From: a virus | DNA length: 41,783 nt | IMG/VR virus record: IMGVR_UViG_3300048928_000058 | Span: 1 to 41,783 of that record | Strand: one strand, 5' to 3' | In this document: in pieces, positions 9,295-12,434 of the stretch | Numbering within the stretch: the stretch's first letter is position 1 | Layout of the letters: every line of letters begins with the position of its first letter | Translations under genes and position numbers: made by a program | Notes under the pieces: model-generated | What the model saw: the letters and a program-made list of their open reading frames with translations, nothing else | The model's database searches: none | Told to the model about the DNA's origin: nothing

Positions 9295-9320
9295 CTCTTC
9301 AACACGTTGTGGAGCAAATC

Positions 9321-10118
9321 ATGCACCATCAAACAGAAACGATCAATACCCCAATCGATTCCGCGCCACTTTTGTCGATTGCTGAAAACGTGGCGCGCGA
9401 AAAGATGAGCAGCTTTGACCTGCTCGACCTAGTCAATTCAGCCCGCGCTCAGTTCGGCGAAAGTGAAGTTCGCAGAAATGATTTCACCGCGCGGTGCCGG
9501 GATGAGCTCGACGGCGAATACTACGAAACTTTCGTAGTAAGGAATCAGCGCGGGCCGGCCTCCGAAGGGCTGATGCTGACGAAGGACCAGTGCCTATTGG
9601 TATCCATGCGCGAGTCGAAGGCAGTTCGCCGCAGCGTAGTCGCCAAGATCAATGCACTGGAGGCGCCCGAGCTCTCCACCATCCAAATCCTGCAGATCGC
9701 CATGGAGTCTGAAAAGGCCCGCTTGATGCTCACCGCCCAGGTCGAGCAGCAGGCCACGAAGATCCACTCGCTGGAGAACCTGTTCAAGGAAGGGATGACC
9801 CACACCCAGTTCTGCAAGGGCCTCAATGGGGTCAACGTCATGCAGGTGGGCAACTACCTGGAAGGCCGCAACTGGCTCTACAACGAGAGCAAGTCAGGTC
9901 TGCGCCACCGTGTGGGCTCGTACGCCCGCGACAAGTACATGACCGAGCACCAGGTCGAAGTCACCCCGCACGGCAAAGAGCCGTTCATCTCCTACACGCC
10001 CATCCTGCTGAAGAAGGGCGCCGCACGCCTGTACGACCTGTACCTGGCTGGCGAGCTGCCCATGAAGAAGACCTGGGACGGCCTGTTCACTCACGACAAA
10101 GCACTGAGGGCCGCGTAA
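9321..10118 (+). CDS. rha: Rha-family phage regulatory protein
   Basis: I start at ATG 9321 (GGAG seven bases upstream) rather than the in-frame GTG at 9309. This 265-residue protein has a Rha domain in the first half, including the signature around LMLTKDQCLLVSMRESKAV and the following K-INALE. The second half has a coiled segment and a KilA/ANT-like basic domain (FCKGLNGVNVMQVGNYLEG). Rha proteins are temperate-phage regulators that can interfere with growth in some hosts. Its stop overlaps the start of the replication gene by one base (TAATG), indicating coupling. Confidence 0.85.
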   Translation: MHHQTETINTPIDSAPLLSIAENVAREKMSSFDLLDLVNSARAQFGESEVRRNDFTARCRDELDGEYYETFVVRNQRGPASEGLMLTKDQCLLVSMRESKAVRRSVVAKINALEAPELSTIQILQIAMESEKARLMLTAQVEQQATKIHSLENLFKEGMTHTQFCKGLNGVNVMQVGNYLEGRNWLYNESKSGLRHRVGSYARDKYMTEHQVEVTPHGKEPFISYTPILLKKGAARLYDLYLAGELPMKKTWDGLFTHDKALRAA

Positions 10119-10684
10119 TGGCCGGGGATTGGATCAAAATGCGAATAGACCTTCAGACGCATCCGAAAGTATTCCGCATGGTGTCCGCATTGCAAGCGGA
10201 CAGATTGCGGATTATCGGCGGACTGCATATTGCGTGGAGCATCTTCGACACCCACTCAAGCGATGGCGTGCTGGTGGGTTACACCGTGGAAGCTATGGAT
10301 GCTGTGGTGGGCTGGCCTGGCTTCACGCAGGCGATGATCGACGTGGAGTGGGCTTCGGTAAATGACGGTGGAAGCCTCGTAATGCCTCGCTTTGACGAGC
10401 ATAACGGGGCCAGCGCCAAGCGCCGTGCGAACGACTCCGAGCGCAAGCGCAACGAGCGGAAAAGTTCTGTCCGCAATTTGTCCGCTTCGGATGCGGACAG
10501 TTTGCGGACCAGAGAAGAGAAGAGAAGAGAAGAGAAGAGAAGAAAGAGCAAGATCAAAAGCAAGGTGCTGGCGCACCGGCGAAGCCTGGCAAGTTCGACC
10601 CCCTCACTGCCAAACCAGAGAACGTGTCCGTCAAAGCCTGGGCCGACTGGTGCCAGCACCGCAAGGAAATACGCAAGCCGCTGA
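10118..10684 (+). CDS. Phage replication initiator (O-like), truncated by frameshift
   Basis: The first 120 residues (MAGDWIKMRIDLQTHPKVF..., a winged-helix-type region ending in a basic linker) match the N-terminal half of replication proteins found before DnaC-like loaders in Pseudomonas phages. After a pentanucleotide tract encoding REEKRREEKRR the frame runs into Ser/Pro-rich nonsense (SKIKSKVLAHRR...) and stops at 10684. The natural C-terminal half is encoded in another frame downstream. As written the protein is 188 residues with a spurious end. It may be phase-variable, freshly mutated or a sequencing artefact. Confidence 0.75.
   Translation: MAGDWIKMRIDLQTHPKVFRMVSALQADRLRIIGGLHIAWSIFDTHSSDGVLVGYTVEAMDAVVGWPGFTQAMIDVEWASVNDGGSLVMPRFDEHNGASAKRRANDSERKRNERKSSVRNLSASDADSLRTREEKRREEKRRKSKIKSKVLAHRRSLASSTPSLPNQRTCPSKPGPTGASTARKYASR
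10511..10543 (+). repeat. Pentanucleotide repeat tract AGAGA x6 plus AGA
   Basis: Thirty-three bases of perfect five-base periodicity (six AGAGA units and a partial seventh) lie inside the replication initiator gene. Because five is not a multiple of three, gain or loss of a unit shifts the frame. Removing exactly one unit joins the N-terminal frame to the C-terminal frame at codon 10543. Confidence 0.95.
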
Positions 10685-10902
10685 CCGCCAAGAGCTGTGA
10701 GCAGCAGGCCAAGGCCTTGGTGGGCCATTCAGCCCCCGATCAGGTGCTGGCTACCTCGATCAGCAACGGTTGGACCGGGATATTCCCGGACAAGCTCTCC
10801 AACAACGTCCACCAGTTCCCCCAGTCGCGCCACACCGGTTTCGCAGAGCGCGACTACACCGCAGGCCTGATTCAGCGTGAGGACGGTTCCTATGCGATCT
10901 GA
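10543..10902 (+). pseudogene. C-terminal part of the replication initiator, out of frame
   Basis: From 10543 this frame reads KEQDQKQGAGAPAKPGKFD, then PLTAKPENVSVKAWADWCQ and a helical domain ending TAGLIQREDGSYAI. That is the expected C-terminal domain of the initiator. It lies in the -1 frame relative to the 10118 start. Internal initiation at GTG 10624 is possible but there is no strong ribosome site. It overlaps the start of the next gene by 11 bases, as a native gene end would. Confidence 0.75.
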
Positions 10903-11701
10903 GCCAGCCGAACAGCCGTCGCCGGAGCTTCCGCCAGGCACTCGAGTTCAGCCTGCCACCTGCGAGACCCACGGCGACTTCGAGCAGAAGGTATTCCCTG
11001 TCCTGGGCAAGGAGCTGAAGAGCGCCTGCCCTGAGTGCAGCCGGATCACTCGCGAGAAGACCGAGGCCGCCGAGCAGGCCAGCAAGGCACTGGAAATCCG
11101 CATGGCGATGGAGCGCAAGCTCGGCGCCGCGCTGATCCCCAAGCGATTTGCGGGTAAAACCCTGGATGGGTACGTCGCCGCCACGTCAGAGCAGCGTAAA
11201 GCGCTGAACACCTGCCGCCGGTATGCCACTGAGTTCAAGCAGATCGCCGAGGCCGGCCGTTGCCTGCTGCTCCTGGGCAAGCCCGGTACCGGCAAGACGC
11301 ATCTGTCCGTGGCCATCGCCAACGAAATCATGGCCAAGTCGAGCGCCACGGCGGTGTACCGCACCATCGGTTCCGTGCTGCAGGCGATCCGAGCCACGTA
11401 CGACCGCAGCAGCGACCAGAGCGAAACCCAAATCCTGTCGAGCCTGATCAGCCCCTCGCTGCTCATCCTGGACGAGATCGGCGTCAGCAAGGAGAAGCCC
11501 AGCGACTTCGAGCTGACCACGCTGTTCGCAATCATCAACGGCCGATACGAACAGATGCGCCCCACAGTGATCGTTTCCAACCTGGAAGCCAAGGCGCTGC
11601 CGGATGCCATTGGCGACCGGTGCATTGATCGGCTTCGGGAGGGCGGGGTGATCGTCATCCCGTTTGAGTGGGAATCACAGCGCGGCAAGGAGGGGTTTTA
11701 A
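10892..11701 (+). CDS. DnaC-like replicative helicase loader ATPase
   Basis: I start at ATG 10892, which overlaps the upstream stop and has GAGG nine bases before it. The 269-residue protein has an N-terminal C-x2-H...C-x2-C metal-binding pattern (C24, H27, C46, C49), a Walker A GKPGTGKT (129-136), a Walker B LLILDEIG with D194/E195, and a C-terminal Arg-containing segment (DRCIDRLREGG). These are the marks of DnaC/IstB-type AAA+ loaders that place the host DnaB helicase at the phage origin. It follows the initiator gene, the usual O-P-like order. Confidence 0.93.
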   Translation: MRSEPAEQPSPELPPGTRVQPATCETHGDFEQKVFPVLGKELKSACPECSRITREKTEAAEQASKALEIRMAMERKLGAALIPKRFAGKTLDGYVAATSEQRKALNTCRRYATEFKQIAEAGRCLLLLGKPGTGKTHLSVAIANEIMAKSSATAVYRTIGSVLQAIRATYDRSSDQSETQILSSLISPSLLILDEIGVSKEKPSDFELTTLFAIINGRYEQMRPTVIVSNLEAKALPDAIGDRCIDRLREGGVIVIPFEWESQRGKEGF

Positions 11702-11703
11702 CC

Positions 11704-11796
11704 ATGGGCCAATACGGTTATTTGTTTGCCGCCGCGTTCATCGCGTTTGCACTGATTCCTGTCTGCGTCGTCATGTATTTCAGGAGTAAGCCATGA
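11704..11796 (+). CDS. 30-residue single-pass membrane peptide
   Basis: Directly after the loader, ATG 11704 follows AAGGAGGGG (overlapping the loader stop region). It encodes 30 residues: MGQYGY, then a hydrophobic helix of about 18 residues (LFAAAFIAFALIPVCVVMY), then FRSKP. It ends with ATGA overlap onto the next gene. Good ribosome site, coupling on both sides and a clean transmembrane segment argue it is real. Function unknown. Confidence 0.7.
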   Translation: MGQYGYLFAAAFIAFALIPVCVVMYFRSKP

Positions 11797-12434
11797 CCGA
11801 CTACACCGAACTGAAGCGGCTTGCCGACGAATTGATCGCTGCGAATGATCTTTTCAACGAAAGCCCGCAGGACAACGAGGTTGGCGATGTTTGGAGCTTG
11901 GCTAACGACCGATTTACCGAAGCTGCGTCGCCTGAAGCCATCCTGGCCCTGATCGCCGAGAACGAGAGGTTGCGCGCCGACTGTTCAAGCATGCGCGGCA
12001 GCCTTAAGGCATATTCAGCGACCACCAAAAAGCTCGTTAAGGACGGATCAAGGGCAGCCCGTGAGCGAGACCAGGTCCGCGCCGAAGTCGCCGGCCTACG
12101 TACCGGCTACGAAGCCTACGAGCGGGTGAATGCTGAGCTGAAGGCTGAGAACGAGCGGCTTAACGATGAGTACGACAAGGCCTGGCGCCACGACCTCAAC
12201 GACAATAAAAACGTCCAGGTATTAGCTGCTGAGGTGGCATGTCTTTCTGCTGAGAACAAGGCGCTGCGCAATGCCTTGGCCGAGTGCACCAACTCCTTGC
12301 AAGGGGAAATGCTCCAGAAGTTTGGCGGCCAACTGCCGGAAGACATGCACCCAGTTACGCGCCGCGAGTACGACCGAGATATTGCGGAGGTTTCGGGATA
12401 TCGCGCCGCCCTGGGCCAGGGAGAGCAGTCATGA
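11793..12434 (+). CDS. Ead/Ea22-like coiled-coil phage protein
   Basis: The 213-residue product starts MTDYTELKRLADELIAAND. It contains ASPEAILALIAENERL and further heptads (AELKAENERLNDEYDKAW), the pattern of the Ead/Ea22-like family found in early regions of lambdoid phages. A long coiled coil is the main structural prediction. The function is not established. It is coupled to the membrane peptide upstream and to the next gene by ATGA overlaps. Confidence 0.85.
   Translation: MTDYTELKRLADELIAANDLFNESPQDNEVGDVWSLANDRFTEAASPEAILALIAENERLRADCSSMRGSLKAYSATTKKLVKDGSRAARERDQVRAEVAGLRTGYEAYERVNAELKAENERLNDEYDKAWRHDLNDNKNVQVLAAEVACLSAENKALRNALAECTNSLQGEMLQKFGGQLPEDMHPVTRREYDRDIAEVSGYRAALGQGEQS

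Follow-up and report, generated by a model that had tools for sequence, protein, structure and literature searches.

We propose that the AGAGA repeat in the replication initiator gene of this virus belongs to a lambda-type replication origin situated inside that gene, and that the 33-nt allele observed here is a slip in unit number and not an established switch; we put the probability of this reading at roughly 0.85. The window, by which we mean the whole stretch of 41,783 nucleotides that was analyzed, is a lambda-like siphophage of 41.8 kb with structural and packaging genes (terminase, portal, tape measure and J fiber) and genes for a CI-like repressor, SSB, a Sak4-like annealing protein, NinB and NinG. 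The frame-shifting repeat had been described in an earlier note on this sequence, which missed the iteron array beside the repeat and with it the probable origin context proposed here. The main interest of the locus is the origin, together with a possible frame-neutral joint, rather than the frameshift.

Table. Features of the initiator region, in window coordinates.
Feature	Position	Strand	Basis or remark
Distal box array inside the N-domain	10172..10223	.	motif scan; synonymous entropy
Proximal iteron-like array	10469..10509	.	motif scan; synonymous codons invariant
(AGAGA)6AGA tract, putative purine-rich unwinding element	10511..10543	+	33 nt; same site in relatives
A-rich flank with conserved GATCAA	10544..10570	+	after tract
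Initiator ORF as it stands	10118..10684	+	188 aa; N part matches phrog_2509, 2e-58
Initiator C-terminal domain, -1 frame, undecayed	10543..10902	+	phrog_678, 5e-25
DnaC/IstB-like helicase loader	10877..11701	+	phrog_50, 3e-76; PF01695, 1e-14

Coordinates and ORFs bear out the description given in the earlier note of an initiator whose C-terminal half is put out of frame by six units plus AGA. The assignment to a replication initiator also holds. Both parts of the protein match initiator families: the N part a family of replication initiation proteins, and the shifted C part, which starts with KEQDQKQGAGAPAKPGKFDPLTAKPEN, a family of O-like initiators. The ORF as it stands comprises an N-terminal domain, probably the origin-binding one, a repeat linker and a 46-aa out-of-frame tail. 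The loader ORF overlaps the end of the initiator, so that a helicase loader gene adjoins the initiator gene as it does at the lambda origin. For the predicted in-frame initiator the mean pLDDT is 74, falling below 60 at the linker. A fold search of this model against the PDB gave no significant match (best E 0.27), the weak matches including winged-helix proteins and plasmid initiators, and a sequence search of the PDB returned low-complexity matches only.

The tract is exactly (AGAGA)6 followed by AGA, and has the top TRF score of the 12 tandem arrays in the window. It opens a 38-nt purine run (10511–10548), a length well above chance expectation: no other purine or pyrimidine run in the window exceeds 14 nt, and the maximum in 100 dinucleotide shuffles was 23. 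The 60-mer starting at 10507 has the lowest stability within 9300–12400 and lies at the 0.48 percentile of the window, so that, as judged by the stability calculation, an easily melted tract lies beside the boxes, as in an intragenic origin of the lambda type. A distinct turn of the GC skew is lacking at 10.5 kb, a point against the origin reading.

Four iteron-like boxes abut the tract: GTCCGCA (10469), GTCCGCT (10480), TGCGGAC (10492) and TGCGGAC (10503), two direct and two inverted, at spacings of 11, 12 and 11 bp. The distal array lies 297 bp upstream of the proximal one and consists of TTCCGCA (10172), GTCCGCA (10183), AGCGGAC (10195), TGCGGAT (10206) and GGCGGAC (10217), spaced by 11, 12, 11 and 11 bp; it could be a looping partner or an autoregulatory site. 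As repeats within an initiator gene, the boxes are candidate binding sites of the kind found in lambda. A gene-wide scan, carried out with a closer and a more distant set of relatives, revealed two islands of very low synonymous variation, and these are the two arrays; at the distal array synonymous entropy is 0.02–0.15 in the two sets, compared with 0.5–0.9 in most of the gene. Codons of the proximal boxes and the tract are frozen (GTC 73/73, TCC 76/76, GCG 75/75, GAC 75/75, CGG 72/72 and AGA 76/76) among 76 relatives that were all fetched by protein search and none by DNA pattern, and in the same relatives the codons a few positions upstream of the proximal boxes show free synonymous variation. 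Relatives that keep the respective residue of the flank use GAT in 67/67 and CAA in 51/51 cases. Some loci could have been found through the peptide EEKRREEK, which makes a bias possible for the tract, not for the boxes.

Genes with this N-domain were collected from viral and genome loci by protein similarity, and in nearly all of them an AGAGA tract 10–33 nt long occupies the same place. The hosts of these tract-bearing relatives are Pseudomonas, enteric bacteria, Xanthomonas and Burkholderiales, and the relatives include phages that infect Salmonella, Klebsiella and Pseudomonas syringae as well as Burkholderiales prophages. The site is occupied even where N-domain identity falls to 31%: Rac YdaU, TL-2011b, CP2, VW-6S and BUCT554, at 31–43% identity, have AGAGA or the hexamer AGAGGA there. 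In a few relatives, among them PAN70, Carin1, SAC and a Vibrio phage, the purine runs are only short or broken. Other N-domain clades have boxes of other types (GTAACGC/GCGTTAC, GCGTGAC or GTCTAC), which likewise abut the tract, and in eight phages of the GTAACGC clade a second box pair is present at nt 148–166 of the gene. Only two E. coli genomes have the epsilon15-like AGAGA form. In the Rac-type ydaU of E. coli (L503, L504, L505 and L507) the AGAGGA tract measures 15, 21 or 27 nt among strains, so length varies and frame does not; the frameshift annotated in L503 must lie elsewhere, since its tract has lost one in-frame hexamer, and in L507 ydaU is interrupted shortly after the tract.

Clustering of the relatives yielded 6 N-groups and 28 C-groups. 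Box types differ in all pairs that share a C-group and differ in N-group (169/169), as expected of sites specific to the N-domain; pairs with the same N-group and different C-groups share the box in 3170 of 5145 cases, and most of the others differ by a single base in the last box. Two loci (L169 and L177) have near-identical C-domains and different N-domains, boxes and repeat units. The C-domain of the window occurs on other N-domains, in each case with other iterons (ACGGGGTGCA; GGTCGGAAAAATATCCGA; GTAACG) and often with a different short junction repeat (AGATAC; AATCAGGGTACCAGT), which places the tract with the N-domain and its boxes. In the relatives compared, differing C-domains attach just after the repeat. 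On this comparison of sequences, the N-domain, its clade-specific boxes and the purine repeat co-occur and travel as one unit. The loci with the same C-domain and other N-domains, iterons and junction repeats (L117, L121, L129, L133, L152, L126 and L094) are predicted to contain further intragenic origins. Two loci depart from the common layout: in L251, from a MAG, the N-domain ORF is 127 aa long and stops immediately ahead of the AGAGA tract, and L263 has a 43-nt AGAGA tract and no detected N-domain of this family.

In the closest relative (L005/L111, 94% DNA identity) the tract measures 28 nt and the gene encodes one continuous protein of 259 aa, which confirms the arithmetic of the earlier note, by which removal of one unit restores a continuous product. 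In the comparison of unit number in related phages suggested there, tract length does vary, and out-of-frame alleles are rare, amounting to 5 of about 270 distinct loci (about 2%). These are the window, L004, L048, L067 and L321; each is out by one unit, L048 being one unit short, so both directions are seen. Judging by its contig name, L004 is probably an isolate genome. In all five the C-domain is undecayed and open over its full length, and in the two pairs compared the differences are mostly silent (window versus L111, C-domain: 18 synonymous and 2 nonsynonymous codons; L048 versus L095: 12 and 0), which suggests that the slips are recent or reversible. The start phase of the tract is nearly constant among relatives, and the tract lengths of intact ORFs cover all residues modulo 3 (166, 68 and 30 loci); pure 5n+3 tracts of 23, 28, 33 and 38 nt are all seen in genes that are intact and differ in their C-regions. 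AGAGA repeats read as REEKR, free of stops, whichever of the three frames is used, so a change in tract length can fit the joint to any C-domain. Based on these observations, the out-of-frame alleles look like sporadic one-unit slips, rare among relatives, and not like a dedicated switch. A further clade (L421, L480 and L488) was considered as out of frame and rejected: its members share a conserved short N-domain ORF that closes, beyond the tract, with a tail of 16 conserved residues, the next ORF lying in another frame, and from this arrangement the clade has a naturally split initiator.

The earlier note had raised slippage-mediated phase variation of phage replication; in that case the unit number would be under selection as a means of turning replication on and off. 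A pure pentanucleotide tract of variable unit number, with one-unit expansions and a contraction, fits that idea, and undecayed C-domains in out-of-frame alleles are what reversible switching would leave. Phase-variable loci usually show mixed on and off states, however, and at this locus the two states are not both common given the low share of out-of-frame loci; moreover, many enteric relatives carry the hexanucleotide AGAGGA, which is unable to shift frame, so frame shifting is not the conserved property, and the boxes beside the tract are frozen to the same degree. We regard a switch as improbable. A miscounted repeat, through faulty assembly or sequencing, would agree with the single contig, available without reads, with phage genes that are otherwise intact and with a closest relative in frame; since ordinary reads are longer than the 33-nt tract and one-unit out-of-frame alleles occur in four other contigs, in both directions, we consider such an error rather unlikely.

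Full-length protein might also be made from the 33-nt allele by programmed -1 ribosomal or transcriptional slippage, both frames being open from the tract to 10681 and the C-domain being conserved. The frameshifting at tandem AGA codons invoked in the earlier note does not suit this allele: such codons push ribosomes +1, the wrong direction for an allele that needs -1; the overlap (10511–10681) contains no X_XXY_YYZ slippery heptamer; and relatives are in frame without slippage. This route is therefore very improbable. Equally, the position of the tract between two domains, where pLDDT is low, would suit a sequence retained purely as a charged protein linker (REEKR) and made uniform by slippage, but other tracts at the site encode EEEEE, and the adjoining box codons are frozen to the same degree though they are not repetitive. 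A linker as the sole reason is accordingly improbable, although a need for charge at the protein level could keep part of the tract, not its codons.

In the preferred reading, an origin within the initiator gene, the N-domain would bind the boxes, strain would be released in the weak purine tract adjoining them so that the tract melts, and the C-domain and the DnaC-like loader would place the helicase at the melted tract. We infer these steps from the least stable 60-mer and from the lambda origin, where iterons are followed by a purine run. The position of the tract beside an iteron array, as a probable part of the origin, would account for its presence: it would be retained for its DNA, with the REEKR product a tolerated charged linker. 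The 33-nt allele would be a recent one-unit expansion (or an assembly slip) whose product, the N-domain alone, should bind the origin without loading the helicase. Tentatively, the repeat may be both an unwinding element, possibly triplex-forming, and a frame-neutral joint for recombination between N and C modules, with the frame tuned by slippage; N-domain/origin modules would then have recombined with unrelated C-domains, and phages with the initiator transiently off would arise as a by-product. Triplex formation is on record for the AAGAG repeats of Drosophila (PMC6316130). Our literature search found no paper on this repeat in phages and none describing this origin.

If the origin reading holds, it predicts the replication start of temperate phages and prophages in a large group, covering epsilon15, Rac, phiPSA1 and many Pseudomonas, Xanthomonas and Burkholderiales elements, and provides a recognizable signature for such origins, namely boxes plus an AGAGA or AGAGGA tract. 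It would also explain why these initiators contain a REEKRREEK linker, and it suggests a route by which initiator domains could be swapped between phages without loss of reading frame.

The lambda origin is reported to consist of iterons plus an AT-rich tract needed for unwinding, in the middle of gene O (PMC7466680); in the lambda sequence that we examined, four iterons precede a purine run inside that gene. Like lambda, the window has iterons and then a purine-/AT-rich tract midway through the initiator gene, with the helicase loader gene next, and its iterons adjoin the part that encodes the initiator's N-terminal half. However, the N-domain belongs to another family, matching phrog_2509 and phrog_9474, whereas lambda O matches phrog_277 and others; without homology to O, it would work like lambda O and not be a member of the O family. 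Lambda has four 18-bp iterons, compared with boxes of 6–7 bp at 11–12 bp spacing, two direct and two inverted, in the window, and lacks the tandem pentamer/hexamer tract, the second box array in the N-domain and the DnaC/IstB-like loader. Rac YdaU/YdaV and the epsilon15-type initiators share the phrog_2509 N-domain and the boxes plus AGAGA or AGAGGA tract; Rac differs in its GTAACGC boxes and AGAGGA hexamer. The Rac prophage is reported to carry an active origin, oriJ (PMC3945230), which we predict from sequence to lie in ydaU; our literature search found no source placing it there. With phase-variable genes based on simple sequence repeats, the locus shares a short coding tandem repeat in which one unit changes the frame; unlike in those genes, the out-of-frame state is rare, the pentamer is not required in relatives, and the adjoining boxes are conserved as DNA.
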